Positions 16,595 through 49,426 of a stretch of 51,512 bases of DNA are shown here, piece after piece. The stretch is taken from positions 1-51,512 of the forward strand of contig JAPPAR010000020.1 of NCBI GenBank assembly GCA_026705445.1, given 5' to 3'. The notes beneath the pieces are model-generated. The model ran no database searches. It was not told where the DNA came from and saw only the letters and a program-made list of their open reading frames with translations. Source of the stretch: Candidatus Dadabacteria bacterium. Its GTDB lineage: Bacteria > Desulfobacterota_D > UBA1144 > Nemesobacterales > Nemesobacteraceae. A program made the translations under genes and the position numbers. Position 1 is the stretch's first letter. Each line of letters starts with the position of its first letter.

Positions 16595-16724
16595 ATGAAC
16601 ATTACGGAAGCAGCGAGAGTTCTTATCATTCTGGGCGCGGGGCTCATAGCGCTCGGTGTGCTGCTTCCCTACGTGGCGAAGCTCGGTTTTCTCGGAAAAC
16701 TTCCAGGGGACATAAAAATCGAAA
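16595..16724 (+). pseudogene. DUF2905 membrane protein, 5' part split by transposon
   Basis: The ATG at 16595 opens MNITEAARVLIILGAGLIAL, then GVLLPYVAKLGFLGKLPGDI, the N-terminal half of the DUF2905 family (two membrane helices, about 70 residues). The frame runs into the inserted element at 16725 and ends at a TAA four bases later. The missing half is found intact after the element at 18878. Confidence 0.88.
16717..16724 (+). repeat. Target-site duplication, left copy
   Basis: AATCGAAA directly abuts the left terminal inverted repeat and is identical to 18878-18885. An 8-bp duplication is the size expected for the IS1595 family. Confidence 0.93.
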
Positions 16725-16748
16725 CGTAATTATGCATTTGACTAACTA
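16725..16748 (+). repeat. Left terminal inverted repeat
   Basis: 24 bases starting CGTAATTATGCATTTGAC. 23 of 24 positions match the complement of 18854-18877. Confidence 0.93.
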
Positions 16749-16775
16749 CAACACAAAATATAGAATACCCGCATT

Positions 16776-17162
16776 GTGGAAAATAAGACAGCACGAGATA
16801 TTGTTTCCCTCCTTTCGGCAATTATGGGTGGTGTCATAGTGGAAATACTAGATGCGGAAGGACAGAGGGTTCTGACGGTTATAGCTTTTGGTTTTATTTT
16901 GATTTTTGTAAGGCTTCTCTGGCCCGACAAAGAGCAAAAACGTTTAGAAGAAAAACTTGATTTGCTTATTCAGAAGGAAGGAGGGGGAAGCTATTCCAGC
17001 AAACCCGTTGTTGAAATTGTCAGGCAACAGACGGTAAATGAAATTCTCGCAGAAAAGCTTACGGAAGAGGAGCGGCTCGAAAAGAGAATAAAAAAAGCCG
17101 AGGAAATGTTTCCGGGTATTTTTACCCGCGATAATCCAAATCCTTTTGATGAGAAATCATAA
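16776..17162 (+). CDS. Passenger protein: membrane segment plus coiled coil
   Basis: A 128-residue protein starting at a GTG (MENKTARDIVSLLSAIMGGV). One hydrophobic segment lies at about residues 31-49 (VLTVIAFGFILIFVRLLW). A charged coiled-coil stretch follows (PDKEQKRLEEKLDLLIQKE and LTEEERLEKRIKKAEEMF). The tail ends FTRDNPNPFDEKS. The first hydrophobic stretch, LLSAIMGGVIVEI, may be a second short membrane pass. There is no recognisable ribosome site, so the start is uncertain. It is the only passenger reading away from the left end and converges with the other passenger genes. Family unknown. Confidence 0.6.
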   Translation: MENKTARDIVSLLSAIMGGVIVEILDAEGQRVLTVIAFGFILIFVRLLWPDKEQKRLEEKLDLLIQKEGGGSYSSKPVVEIVRQQTVNEILAEKLTEEERLEKRIKKAEEMFPGIFTRDNPNPFDEKS

Positions 17163-17167
17163 TCCCT

Positions 17168-17374
17168 TTAGTGATCTTGTTTTACTTGCCAATATAAGAC
17201 TAAAATTATCAAGATAAAGAAAAGCGGAGCCGCTACTACCCAGGGACCTTCTCTGTTTTGAAGATATGCCACTATGAGATATACCCCAAAGACATAGGCT
17301 CCCCAGCGCCCTTTTCCGTGGTGGATCAAGCACAAGGGGATAGCGATTAAGACAGCGAAAATTATAATTCCCAT
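17168..17374 (-). CDS. Passenger protein: two-helix small membrane protein
   Basis: A 68-residue protein that is almost entirely membrane: MGIIIFAVLIAIPLCLIHHG, then a short loop, YVFGVYLIVAYL, and a final helix WVVAAPLFFILIILVLYW, ending in a charged tail (QVKQDH). It begins six bases after the stop of the 130-residue passenger and is probably cotranscribed with it and the transposase. No family recognised. A small inner-membrane role is all the sequence supports. Confidence 0.55.
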   Translation of the reverse strand: MGIIIFAVLIAIPLCLIHHGKGRWGAYVFGVYLIVAYLQNREGPWVVAAPLFFILIILVLYWQVKQDH

Positions 17375-17380
17375 TGGCGG

Positions 17381-17773
17381 TTATTCTTCTGAAATATCGT
17401 AGGGGTTTACCTTAAACTTTTGACAAAGTTCCTCACATCGTTTTATGTGGGAATCTAAAACAGCTTCGCCAGATGTAATCTTTTCTTCTAAGTACCGGGG
17501 AAGCACTTTGTGTTTTATTATCAATTCAAAGGCTCTGGTTTCTACGTGTTTATCTAAACGTTCGATTTCTTTTATTAGGGGACTTAATCTGTCTTGCACG
17601 TTAAAAAGAGTTCTTAACACGTCGTCCTCTGGTTTTGAAAGAAAACCTCTATCGAAAGCACGAAGTGATTGCTGTTCCACCGGAAAAGCAAGTTCTAAAT
17701 GTGCCAATTTCAATAACTCACTGGCAACACCGATTAGTTCATCTAAGTTCATCTTGTCGGTTTTCGTTGACAT
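17381..17773 (-). CDS. Passenger protein of unknown function, coupled to the transposase
   Basis: A 130-residue soluble, helical, charged protein beginning MSTKTDKMNLDELIGVASEL. It has no membrane segment. Two cysteines lie near the end (RCEELCQKF), and a VNPYDISEE tail echoes the PNPFDEKS tail of the left passenger. Its ATG overlaps the transposase stop as TAATG on the minus strand, so it is translationally coupled to the transposase. That coupling suggests a role in, or regulation with, transposition. Not recognised. Confidence 0.65.
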   Translation of the reverse strand: MSTKTDKMNLDELIGVASELLKLAHLELAFPVEQQSLRAFDRGFLSKPEDDVLRTLFNVQDRLSPLIKEIERLDKHVETRAFELIIKHKVLPRYLEEKITSGEAVLDSHIKRCEELCQKFKVNPYDISEE

Positions 17774-18660
17774 TAAGCTACAAGCTCCTTATAAGTAAGA
17801 TTTTCGGTATTCATAATCCGCTTTAAAGTATCAATGAAGATATGCGGGTTATCTCGGTTGTTAAGCCGCCATTCAAGCTCCTCGATGTAGCGGTCCATGT
17901 GTTTAACGGACATCTTGTGAAACGCCCCGATAATTGAACGCTTGAACAGGCTCCACACGCCCTCGATGCTGTTGGTATGGACATCCCCCCGGACCCATTC
18001 TTCCTCGGAGTGGTTAACCGTTTCGTGGCGAGTGTCGGAATCTTCAACTCCGAGATAAGCTTTCCATTCGTCCGTGTAGACCGCTTCAGCTTCATCCTTC
18101 ACCGCCCGTTTGATAAACCCGTGAAGCGTTTCCCTTTTCGTGTTGGGGATTCTCTCGATGCGAACCTTCCCACCACGCTGGATGGCTCCAGCAATCCAAG
18201 TCTTATTTCCCGTGTAACGCCGACCCTTGCCCTTCGTTTTGCCTCCGATAAGGGTTTCATCTACCTCGACAACTCCGACAAGCGTAGGGCCCTCAAACGG
18301 TTCATTGCCCATTGCTTGGCGGATTCGGTGGCAAAGATACCACGCGGTTCTGTATTGTACCCCGAGGGTGCGTTTCATCTGGTTGGCCGAAATGCCTTTT
18401 TTCGATTCGCACATCAGGTAGATGGCAATAAACCACTTGCGGAGCGGGAGGTGGGAATCATGCATGATGGTTCCGCTCATTACCGAGAACTGGTAATTGC
18501 AACCGAGGCACTTCCAGCGGTTCTGTTTTTCAAGTTTCAGTACCTCTACGCATCCGCATCGGGTACAATGTATACCATGAGGCCAACGAATTTTCTCCAA
18601 AGCTTCGCGGCAATCGTCGTCGGTTTGAAATTTATCCATTAAGGAAACAAGGTTTAACAT
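17773..18660 (-). CDS. IS1595-family (ISXO2-like) DDE transposase
   Basis: A 295-residue transposase. An N-terminal zinc ribbon CTRCGC...WKCLGCNYQF (about residues 31-57) is followed by FSVMSGTIMHDSHLPLRKWF. The ISXO2-type catalytic core follows: VVEVDETLIGGKTKG (first Asp), AVYTDEWKAYLG (second Asp) and HTNSIEGVWSLFKRSIIGAF (Asn/Glu motif), with ELEWRLNNR after it. The length is normal and no frameshift is seen, so it looks active. Its ATG shares bases with the ATG of the divergent 57-residue gene. It cuts and rejoins the element's terminal repeats. Confidence 0.94.
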   Translation of the reverse strand: MLNLVSLMDKFQTDDDCREALEKIRWPHGIHCTRCGCVEVLKLEKQNRWKCLGCNYQFSVMSGTIMHDSHLPLRKWFIAIYLMCESKKGISANQMKRTLGVQYRTAWYLCHRIRQAMGNEPFEGPTLVGVVEVDETLIGGKTKGKGRRYTGNKTWIAGAIQRGGKVRIERIPNTKRETLHGFIKRAVKDEAEAVYTDEWKAYLGVEDSDTRHETVNHSEEEWVRGDVHTNSIEGVWSLFKRSIIGAFHKMSVKHMDRYIEELEWRLNNRDNPHIFIDTLKRIMNTENLTYKELVA

Positions 18661-18832
18661 GGTTCAAAAACCCCCTAAGAAAAGAAAAAAGCTCCCCAAA
18701 GACATACTCGAAAAAGACGACAGATACCTTATGGAATGTATTTTCGGCAAGCGAGTAATGAAGGAACTCGACAAAATTACCTCGGAAGAACCGAAGGAAA
18801 AGATTGAAATAACTGAATTCTTTAGCATGTAG
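18659..18832 (+). CDS. 57-residue basic/acidic small protein diverging from the transposase
   Basis: The plus-strand ATG at 18659-18661 overlaps the minus-strand transposase ATG (18658-18660), so the two genes diverge from shared bases. The product begins MVQKPPKKRKKLPKDILEKD, continues DRYLMECIFGKRVMKELDKI and ends in an acidic tail (ITEFFSM). The very basic start could bind nucleic acid. It lies inside the element, 21 bases before the right inverted repeat. Upstream AAGGAAAC is a weak ribosome site that overlaps transposase codons. Unknown function; a regulator or accessory factor of transposition is possible. Confidence 0.5.
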   Translation: MVQKPPKKRKKLPKDILEKDDRYLMECIFGKRVMKELDKITSEEPKEKIEITEFFSM

Positions 18833-18853
18833 ATAATTCTACATGTTGTGCAT

Positions 18854-18877
18854 TAGTTTGTCAAATGCATAATTACG
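18854..18877 (-). repeat. Right terminal inverted repeat
   Basis: Complementary to 16725-16748 with one mismatch. Ends at the 8-bp duplication. Confidence 0.93.
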
Positions 18878-18885
18878 AATCGAAA
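18878..18885 (+). repeat. Target-site duplication, right copy
   Basis: AATCGAAA, identical to 16717-16724. Confidence 0.93.
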
Positions 18886-18977
18886 GAGAGAACTTCAGTT
18901 TCTATTTTCCGATTGCGACCTGCGTGGTGCTGAGCATTCTGCTTACGCTTCTCGGCAATCTTTTCTTCAGAAAATAA
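18878..18977 (+). pseudogene. DUF2905 membrane protein, 3' part
   Basis: Read in the frame set by the 5' part, after removing one duplication copy, this segment gives RENFSFYFPIATCVV, then LSILLTLLGNLFFRK and a TAA at 18975-18977. This is the expected second helix and C-terminus of DUF2905. The gene was intact, 73 residues long, before the insertion. Confidence 0.88.
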
Positions 18978-47442: not shown

Positions 47443-47562
47443 CGTGTTAAGTACAGATTGGAGGACCAGTGCAAATAGAGTGAACTAAAAGACTTAAGCA
47501 GTTTTTGGTTGTTGATATAATTACTTAGAGGAATAATATTGATATAGTTCAGAGGTTTGAAG

Positions 47563-47877
47563 ATGGGAATACGTATTTCAATACCGAAAAAAGAAACCGT
47601 CGCTTTTTGCGAGCGCTGGAATATTGCAGAGCTTGCGTTTTTCGGTTCTGTCTTGCGGGATGACTTTAGTTCAGAAAGCGACATAGATGTGCTTGTAAAC
47701 CCACATCCCGGAATTAGTCACAGTATTTCCAATATATTACGCATGGAGAGGGAATTGGGCGACATTCTAGGGAGGGAGGTCGATTTAGTCTTTCGACCCG
47801 ATGTTGAGCGCAGCCGAAACTATATCCGGCGTGAAGCCATTCTAAAATCCGCTGAGGTTTTTTATGAAGCGCGATGA
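47563..47877 (+). CDS. mntA: MntA-type antitoxin (minimal nucleotidyltransferase)
   Basis: A 104-residue MNT-fold protein. The active-site motif FFGSVLRDDFSSESDIDVLV carries the G-S and D-x-D residues needed for nucleotide transfer. MntA proteins neutralise the HepT toxin by attaching AMP to it. AGAGG (47551-47555) lies seven bases before the ATG at 47563, which fixes the start; a TTG six bases earlier is less likely. Its 3' end overlaps hepT by 14 bases, as usual for these pairs. Confidence 0.92.
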   Translation: MGIRISIPKKETVAFCERWNIAELAFFGSVLRDDFSSESDIDVLVNPHPGISHSISNILRMERELGDILGREVDLVFRPDVERSRNYIRREAILKSAEVFYEAR

Positions 47878-48208
47878 AGCCGCTTATTTGCTTGACATGC
47901 TACTGGCCGCTCAAGACGCTTTGGAATTTTCATCCAGTTTAACCTTTCAGCAGTTTGCCCAAGACCGGTTACGTCAGAATGCCGTCTTCAAGTGCATTGA
48001 AATCATCGGGGAGGCCGCAACTCATGTTGAGGAGAAAACCAAGCGGAAGAATCCTAAAGTTCCATGGCAAAATATTATAGGCACTCGAAATCGTCTAGCG
48101 CATGGCTATTTCCAGATAAGCTTGGAAGTTGTATGGGATATTGTAAAGAATGATATTCCTCAGCTAATTGACCTTCTTAAAACACTTGTGCCGCCGGAAG
48201 CAAAATGA
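47864..48208 (+). CDS. hepT: HepT-type toxin (HEPN/DUF86)
   Basis: A 114-residue all-helical HEPN protein. The catalytic motif RNRLAHGY (R-x4-H-x-Y) is intact; the Tyr is the residue AMPylated by MntA. Unmodified toxins of this family act as RNases or otherwise inhibit translation. The reading frame is complete. With mntA it forms an apparently functional type VII toxin-antitoxin pair at the edge of the CRISPR region. Confidence 0.92.
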   Translation: MKRDEAAYLLDMLLAAQDALEFSSSLTFQQFAQDRLRQNAVFKCIEIIGEAATHVEEKTKRKNPKVPWQNIIGTRNRLAHGYFQISLEVVWDIVKNDIPQLIDLLKTLVPPEAK

Positions 48209-48351: not shown

Positions 48352-48507
48352 GTTTGACTTCACTCTCTTTTGCTGTAGATTCTTTGTCAAGGATATGCGG
48401 CAAATTCTGCTTACGATTGTTGAGGGGAATCCTGGACCCCAAAAGTTCCGTAGGAGGTGGAAGCAGCCCTCCTCGCGTATCCCTGAGGCGACCAGGCGAC
48501 GCCTCAT
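48352..48507 (-). repeat. Long inverted repeat, copy A
   Basis: Read on the minus strand this 156-base segment aligns with copy B (49274-49426). They share CGTCGCCTGGTCGCCTC, TACGGAAC, TTTGCCGCA, TCTACAG and a final GAGAGTGAAGTCAAAC, with scattered substitutions and small gaps. The repeat starts at the stop codon of a nuclease-like gene in both copies. Its first 23 bases also form a hairpin (TGAGGCG/CGCCTCA). Confidence 0.8.
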
Positions 48508-48793
48508 TTTATCTTCTTCTTTTTGATGCTTCTGGCCGCCCGGTCATTCACCGTATACGTCGAGAGAAGGTACAGTTCTCTTTTGTCCCGCGTGGTCTTT
48601 ATGACCGTGAAACGCTGCTCTCCCTTTTCCGTCGTCAAATACCCGGTTCGGTTATCCGGCAGACACATAGGGTCGGCGGAGTCGATGTTCTTCTGAATAT
48701 TCTGGTATTGCTTGAGAGTGATTCTCGGGTGATTCTCGGGTGATTGTTTCTCTGCTGGTCTGACAGCAGGATGGCCCGTGACTTGGTGCCCAT
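48504..48793 (-). pseudogene. Phage-type nuclease-domain gene fragment, broken by an 11-bp duplication
   Basis: The minus-strand C-terminal part reads ITLKQYQNIQKNIDSADPM, then GYLTTEKGEQRFTVIKTTRD and ELYLLSTYTVND, ending in a lysine-rich tail. The 5' part, from an ATG at 48793, reads MGTKSRAILLSDQQRNNHPR in another frame. A tandem repeat of the 11 bases AATCACCCGAG separates them; removing one copy joins both parts into one continuous 92-residue product. The pattern LLSDQQ...NHPRITLKQY resembles nuclease domains fused to or following phage head-morphogenesis proteins (Barnase/EndoU/ColicinE5/RelE-like). Family assignment is an inference. The 5' end may also be truncated. Confidence 0.5.
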
Positions 48794-49277
48794 GTTTCAG
48801 CCGGACCTTGAAGAGTACGATTACGATATCGCACGCAAATATGTTGAGGATGCGGTTACGGGACCGGTGCTCAAGAGGTTCGTTGAAAAGGAGAGAATTC
48901 GCGGAAAAAACGAGAAGTTTCCAGTCGCGGTACTCAACGCCGAAACAAAAAGACTCACTGGGCAGGCAAAATTCCAGGCAGTCAGAATGAGACATGGGGT
49001 CATGAGGAAAATCACGGGCAAGCATAGCGACATTACGATAGAGGATATGCTCCGGGCGCAGGAAGCGGTGGACGACGGAATGGTTATACAGCCCAAAAAA
49101 AACCCCCTCAAGCGCGAATTTTTCCTCGAGGTGGGCGAGGTTCTTTACGTCTTCCCGCACGTGCCGACGAAAACCGGGTTGCAGGTGAAGACGTTTTTCA
49201 AGAAAACGGAGGGAAAGGAAGATTTCCTGAAAGCAAAAAAGGCAGAAGGAAAGGTGTTGAGAAAGCAGAAAAGATGA
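48771..49277 (+). CDS. Phage-type nuclease-domain protein, complete C-terminus
   Basis: A 168-residue protein from the ATG at 48771 (MARDLVPMFQPDLEEYDYDI). Its core, GKHSDITIEDMLRAQEAVDD followed by FFLEVGEVLYVFPHVPTKTG and LQVKTFFKK, aligns with the NHPRITLKQYQNIQKNIDSA part of the minus-strand fragment. The two are therefore related domains in opposite orientation. A lysine-rich tail (KAKKAEGKVLRKQKR) ends at the first bases of repeat copy B. There is no good ribosome site, so the start is uncertain and the gene may be a 5'-truncated piece of a phage head-associated toxin or nuclease. Confidence 0.5.
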   Translation: MARDLVPMFQPDLEEYDYDIARKYVEDAVTGPVLKRFVEKERIRGKNEKFPVAVLNAETKRLTGQAKFQAVRMRHGVMRKITGKHSDITIEDMLRAQEAVDDGMVIQPKKNPLKREFFLEVGEVLYVFPHVPTKTGLQVKTFFKKTEGKEDFLKAKKAEGKVLRKQKR

Positions 49278-49426
49278 GACGTCGCCTGGTCGCCTCCGGA
49301 TGTGCGAGAGGGGCTCCTTCTCCCTCTACGGAACCTATTGGACCCAGAGGTTCCTCAGCATTGAGCACGGAGATTTTGCCGCACACCTTAACGAAAAGTC
49401 TACAGGAAGGGAGAGTGAAGTCAAAC
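49274..49426 (+). repeat. Long inverted repeat, copy B
   Basis: Plus-strand partner of copy A (48352-48507). It begins ATGAGACGTCGCCTGGTCGC and ends GAGAGTGAAGTCAAAC. The two copies enclose the back-to-back nuclease-domain genes. Confidence 0.8.

Follow-up and report, generated by a model that had tools for sequence, protein, structure and literature searches.

A likely functional IS1595-family transporter insertion sequence, recently inserted into a DUF2905 gene of a Candidatus Dadabacteria bacterium, and its conserved small gene

What has split the DUF2905 gene in the stretch of DNA analysed here, and what might be the role of the genes that lie between its two halves? The stretch, hereafter called the window, is a contig of 51,512 nucleotides in its entirety (JAPPAR010000020.1, contig C20) from the 1.78-Mb, 97.6% complete assembly GCA_026705445.1 of a Candidatus Dadabacteria bacterium. 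The gene is interrupted by a complete IS1595-family element of 2153 bp (window 16725-18877), which we consider likely to be a functional transporter insertion sequence (IS) and a recent arrival. Its terminal inverted repeats (TIRs), the target-site duplication (TSD), the transposase gene and the two parts of the target gene are located as follows.

16595..16724, + strand: DUF2905 gene, 5' part, the last 8 bp of which are one TSD copy
16717..16724, no strand: left TSD, AATCGAAA, identical to the copy at 18878-18885
16725..16748, + strand: left (transposase-distal) TIR of 24 bp, with the same end consensus in relatives
17773..18660, - strand: IS1595-family transposase gene, 295 amino acids (PF12762, PF12760, NF033547)
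18854..18877, - strand: right (transposase-proximal) TIR of 24 bp
18878..18885, no strand: right TSD, AATCGAAA, identical to the copy at 16717-16724
18886..18977, + strand: DUF2905 gene, 3' part up to the stop codon, defined by joining the flanks and by comparison with orthologues

The left end, CGTAATTATGCATTTGACTAACTA, starts at 16725 and recurs in inverse orientation with one mismatch to finish at 18877 (23/24), and over 48 bp the two ends are about 83% similar. The duplication of 8 bp is exact and leaves no room for a slip of the alignment. Of all inverted pairs in the window that match at 21 or more of 24 positions, a single one has an 8-bp duplication, namely this element, and the chance expectation for such ends plus duplication in the window is about 1.5e-9. 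The initial annotation had described both the inverted repeats and the duplication correctly; the coordinates 16595-18977 that it gave for the element, however, are those of the interrupted gene.

Joining of the flanks minus one TSD copy yields a protein of 73 amino acids that matches PF11146 (DUF2905, E 2e-25), so that the restoration of the gene by removal of the element, as originally claimed, holds. The gene is uninterrupted in 12 of 13 genomes of the same genus, the remaining one (G004) giving no match, and the joined flank forms an unbroken alignment with that of G002 (645 bp, 82%). Together, the TSD and the empty sites in relatives indicate one transposition event of the whole unit. The split gene differs from its orthologues by 19-33 synonymous and 7-20 amino-acid-changing differences, and its ratio of non-synonymous to synonymous differences (pN/pS) of about 0.12-0.2 is the same as among the intact orthologues. 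Since the split gene shows the substitution pattern of intact genes, there appears to have been little time for decay since the insertion. One might still suspect a dead relic that became fixed in the lineage, given that we found no second copy of the element in the same assembly. Yet the almost exclusively synonymous divergence of the split gene, the open transposase frame, the perfect TSD and the 12 close relatives with an empty site leave this explanation hardly credible, and instead support the recent movement that had been proposed from the start.

The transposase combines a zinc ribbon (C32, C35, C51 and C54; PF12760, Zn_ribbon_IS1595, 1.6e-11, residues 13-57) with a DDE-type domain (D134, D197, HTN230..K240), and it matches PF12762 (DDE_Tnp_IS1595, 3.1e-38) as well as the NCBIfam model transpos_IS1595 (NF033547, 1.9e-62). 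On these sequence criteria, and with its TIRs and 8-bp TSD, membership of the element in the IS1595 family, already assigned initially, is confirmed. No solved structure related to the transposase was found. Its nearest relative (88%) belongs to the same genus (L056/L087), and relatives with 53-72% identity in the longer matches lie in metagenome-assembled genomes (MAGs) labelled Gammaproteobacteria, Gemmatimonadota, Acidobacteriota (Terriglobia), Deltaproteobacteria/Myxococcota and Rhodothermales. Such relatives are rare in the groups searched (10/295, 2/148 and 1/295 genomes); none was found in viral contigs, and those on plasmids all have less than 60% identity, with about 39-41% among the best matches listed. 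The ends of the elements in the clade follow the common pattern GGTGATTATGCACTTGAC, and exact 8-bp TSDs flank L004, L005, L006, L011, L014, L087, L090, L116, L118 and L122. Three further members, L007, L008 and L009, are contigs (3559, 3850 and 6088 bp, respectively) made up of precisely one element each, from end to end, and two of these contigs have coverage of 275-323 in the record titles. This suggests multi-copy elements collapsed by the assembler, and their host assignment is unsafe because each contig holds one element only. Judging from names, several of the relatives' MAGs very likely come from sponges, as the isolate prefixes APA, COS and RHO fit Aplysina, Coscinoderma and Rhopaloeides, sponges from which PMC8163846 took samples; placing the window organism itself in a sponge would likewise be a reading of names. 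A decayed IS1595 transposase with two TAA stops is present elsewhere in the genome of the window (G000, contig C11, 30376-30763; L053, L054).

But what does the element contain besides its transposase gene? The following features lie between its ends.

16738..16766, + strand: predicted distal-end promoter, sigma70-type, directed inward, TTGACT-N17-TAGAAT (10/12 consensus matches)
16776..17162, + strand: ORF128, passenger, with two membrane segments at the N-terminus followed by a cytoplasmic tail; no family model matched it above the cut-off
17168..17374, - strand: ORF68, passenger, hydrophobic protein of 68 amino acids with two membrane segments
17381..17773, - strand: ORF130, passenger, soluble and predicted to be helical
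18659..18832, + strand: sORF57, gene of a small basic protein of 57 amino acids
18836..18864, - strand: predicted transposase-proximal-end promoter, sigma70-type, directed inward, TTGACA-N17-TAGAAT (11/12 consensus matches; same position in most relatives)

The initial annotation counted four cargo genes besides the transposase. Three of these, ORF128, ORF130 and ORF68, stand as passengers, for they lie inside the TIRs, as in a transporter IS, and are absent from relatives; the fourth (18659-18832) belongs to the IS itself and is conserved across its clade. Its description of the element as a small transposon rather than a bare IS agrees with this known category (PMC3129680). The start of ORF130 overlaps the stop of the transposase gene (TAATG), from which we conclude that the two are probably translationally coupled, and because ORF68 follows only 6 bp behind ORF130 the three genes look like one operon. 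No convincing homologue of any passenger was found in Pfam, NCBIfam, PADLOC, PHROGs, viral contigs, 119 relatives or the fetched elements. The defence models of PADLOC matched the passengers with E 0.008 at best and through membrane-segment similarity only; a CARF-2TM match in this collection was set aside as similarity of membrane segments or helices, as were weak matches to proteins of about 520 amino acids (family f8). The structure model of ORF130 is poor (pLDDT 44) and unusable.

Among the promoter-like sites of the region, the TTGACW-N17-TAGAAT sequences in the two ends score best. Most relatives have the -35 box at position 14 of the end, and on the transposase side the -10 box is kept as well (mean 3.6 of 6 versus a null of 2.1). 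At the distal end the -10 score is 3.25 with an inward gene behind it as opposed to 1.5 without (p = 0.013, small sample). The predicted proximal promoter should drive transposase, ORF130 and ORF68, with a leader of about 170 nt that would be antisense to sORF57. The GTG start of ORF128 lies 52 bp from the element end and 10 bp behind the -10 box, and the predicted distal promoter probably starts this gene on a leaderless mRNA.

sORF57 is divergent from the transposase gene, the two ATGs overlapping on opposite strands (CATG), and is present in all 24 sequences of its clade examined (23 relatives and the window), which we therefore call the sORF clade. The 24 sequences align nearly without gaps over its core (basic tail, LP.DI, then D.EIME..FGKRVM.E.D). 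A profile from which L089 and L090 were left out still recovers both (4e-5 and 2e-5, respectively) and scores nothing above background among other IS1595 loci; in the transposase tree the carriers are one clade (support 100/99), with a single origin in 200/200 bootstrap trees. Searches of Pfam, NCBIfam and other family models assigned it to no named family, and a search of plasmids with an sORF of the clade returned nothing. The TSDs of the sORF clade show a weak target preference, with T at position 3 (7/11) and A at position 6 (8/11).

Is sORF57 then a gene at all? The frame is contained entirely in the leader predicted for the transposase gene, on the other strand, and has no database family, just as would be the case if it were spurious and what is conserved were instead a leader or an antisense RNA belonging to the transposase gene. 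Such an RNA would not account for the preference of substitutions for third codon positions (7, 6 and 16 by position between the window and L087, with pS 0.54, pN 0.11 and pN/pS 0.2; pN/pS 0.2-0.5 in most close pairs), nor for the nearly gap-free protein core. Moreover, other DNA separates sORF and transposase in L009, L014 and L015, and a search of the RNA families in Rfam gave no real match. We regard the spurious frame as quite improbable and sORF57 as a part of this IS clade that is, by its substitution pattern, under selection at the protein level, and not as cargo. Its AlphaFold model shows two short helices behind the basic tail, and it may regulate the transposase or act as its co-factor.

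The position of ORF128 raises the question of whether the far end of these elements has a role of its own. We applied a membrane test to the longest ORF near this end, requiring a hydropathy of at least 1.6 over the first 100 residues, which is a crude threshold. It was passed automatically by 11 elements (that of the window, L004, L006, L007, L008, L011, L014, L017, L116, L118 and L123) and, with the start codon picked by hand, by L009 and L087, which amounts to 13 of 14 cargo-bearing elements; the one below the threshold, L122, has two weaker membrane segments. In L090, the outer-branch member of the clade, a DUF3800 gene takes this place instead, and in L016 no far-end gene was called. Only 2 of 43 small background ORFs pass the same test. 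Thus, in nearly all cargo-bearing elements of the sORF clade the far-end gene is predicted to encode N-terminal membrane segments. These proteins are mostly unrelated: L007, L009 and L014 form a family, with L122 marginal, and a single homologous family for all was rejected since the remainder does not rise above shuffled decoys. The start codon is located 48-54 bp from the element end in 8 of the 11 inward genes examined, a distance that ORF128 fits and that corresponds to the predicted transcription start. This coincidence suggests that the far-end genes are expressed from leaderless mRNAs. The same geometry, again with membrane proteins, occurs in two elements of other IS1595 subgroups (L137, start at 49; L142, start at 50). 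Finally, the bare element L005 (1159 bp), which consists of transposase and sORF and has an exact TSD, shows that movement does not require cargo.

Cargo is the rule in the genus of the window organism. Eighteen IS1595 elements could be resolved to their ends (among them, beyond that of the window, L092, L135-L137, L139, L141-L143, L145-L149, L151 and L153) and six further loci could not; all 18 carry cargo, the shortest measuring 1,788 bp, and 17 have exact TSDs. The cargo comprises restriction-modification genes, lipoproteins, secreted proteins, an aspartyl-protease-like gene and a trypsin-like gene, and methyltransferase or restriction genes are found in seven elements (L091, L092, L139, L141, L143, L151 and L153). 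L091, a second and distant (42%) IS1595 element in the genome of the window (contig C21, 3312-6119; ends GGGAATTATAAA.., TSD AAACTTTT), carries a gene for an N6/N4 DNA methylase with a fused HNH domain. The cargo of L092 is type IIG-like (1e-150), that of L139 a restriction enzyme (7e-135) plus a methylase (1e-164), and L141 has in addition a trypsin-like protein that weakly resembles defence proteases. Small secreted proteins, related to each other as judged by eye, recur in L087, L137 and L149.

The kind of element is already known. According to the summary in PMC8101967 of the work of Siguier, Gagnevin and Chandler (2009), members of the IS1595 family usually have one transposase gene, and an N-terminal zinc ribbon is present in all groups except IS1016 (PMC8101967). 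ISfinder divides the family into the subgroups ISPna2, ISH4, IS1016, IS1595, ISSod11, ISNwi1 and ISNha5. The window element shares with the family the Zn-ribbon and DDE_Tnp_IS1595 transposase, the TIRs and the 8-bp TSD; it differs by the conserved divergent sORF, the predicted inward promoters in both ends and the three passengers. As defined in PMC3129680, citing Siguier 2009, a transporter IS is an IS with passenger genes unrelated to transposition, and passengers between the TIRs of a single IS are what we find here. Different from that general picture, however, cargo is without exception in the resolved elements of this genus, with methyltransferase or restriction genes in 7/18, and in the sORF clade a membrane gene stands at a nearly fixed distance from the far end. 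ISApl4, a member of the IS1016 subgroup, has 712 bp, a transposase gene only and 14-bp TIRs, and its cargo is mobilised only by two IS copies together, as a pseudo-compound transposon (PMC12561309). It belongs to the same family and likewise generates 8-bp target repeats, AT-rich in its case, whereas the element of the window has 2153 bp and 24-bp TIRs and holds its cargo within a single IS. The literature searched, which did not extend to ISfinder or the 2009 family paper, contained no mention of a clade-specific sORF, of promoters in the ends paired with membrane genes at the far end, or of a genus in which cargo is the rule, and priority is not established.

How would such an element work? 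The transposase would bind the two 24-bp ends, move the unit of 2153 bp and duplicate 8 bp of target. Transcription from the proximal end would yield the leader antisense to the sORF, followed by the transposase-ORF130-ORF68 operon, and the sORF protein and the antisense transcript may together control expression or activity of the transposase. At the distal end, the promoter would express the membrane protein ORF128, whose start codon would coincide with the first transcribed position. More speculatively, the passengers could form a conflict module for exclusion of, or defence against, phages or rival elements. For the window cargo we consider this plausible but doubtful; the analogy comes from the restriction and methyltransferase genes in sister elements of the genus and the membrane proteins that relatives carry at the same place.

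Against this picture as a whole speak several observations. The three passengers have no homologue in the databases and relatives searched, which leaves analogy as the guide to their function; elsewhere in the sORF clade the cargo genes are of the GmrSD_C/HNH, DUF3800 or orphan kind, with no clear restriction systems among them; many distal -10 boxes are weak in relatives; and the model of sORF57 is of only moderate confidence (pLDDT 70), with no DNA- or RNA-binding fold identified. It is also quite conceivable, if short of probable, that this is an ordinary transporter IS which has picked up pieces of host or phage DNA at random between its ends, so that its passengers would have no selected function. 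The cargo is indeed different in every element, that of the window lacks homologues, and transporter ISs with unrelated passengers have been described (PMC3129680). However, random capture predicts neither membrane segments in nearly all cargo-bearing far-end genes of the sORF clade as compared to the background, nor a start codon held at 48-54 bp, nor recurrent methyltransferase and restriction genes, and these three features therefore weigh against it. That ORF68 and ORF130 are instead an addiction or toxin-antitoxin-like pair, which would penalise loss of the element, fits their tight operon behind the transposase gene and the small size and two membrane segments of ORF68. We think it unlikely, as no toxin or antitoxin family was detected in Pfam, NCBIfam or PADLOC and the pair was not found in other elements.

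Apart from the element, the window contains a CRISPR-like array near the contig end (49600-51500), with CCGAGGCAAAGTTGCCTCGG repeats about every 74 bp. At 48352-49426, an ORF (48744-49277) is enclosed by two inverted repeats, one nested within the other (41 and 37 bp, 83-86% complementary), which possibly mark another small element. Adjacent genes at 47557-48208 resemble, by eye only, a nucleotidyltransferase (MNT) and HEPN-type pair.

What does the preferred reading, a transporter IS with its own small gene and predicted promoters in its ends, mean for this family? Elements with a single transposase and proven ends carry methyltransferase or restriction, membrane and secreted-protein genes in many members of the genus, and have close relatives in several phyla. 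The conserved sORF offers a candidate for an unnamed regulator in an IS family that is usually described with the transposase gene alone. Restriction-modification genes are enriched and laterally transferred in sponge-symbiont genomes (PMC8163846, which mentions no transposase). With considerable reservation, we suggest that these IS1595-type elements may constitute a small, promoter-equipped cassette system of several phyla, probably mostly of sponge symbionts, in which a dedicated sORF would control the transposase and the end promoter would provide a fixed plug-in position for the expression of fast-changing, membrane-anchored or restriction-type conflict genes. If so, the lateral transfer of defence genes between symbiont phyla would have a physical vehicle in these units.

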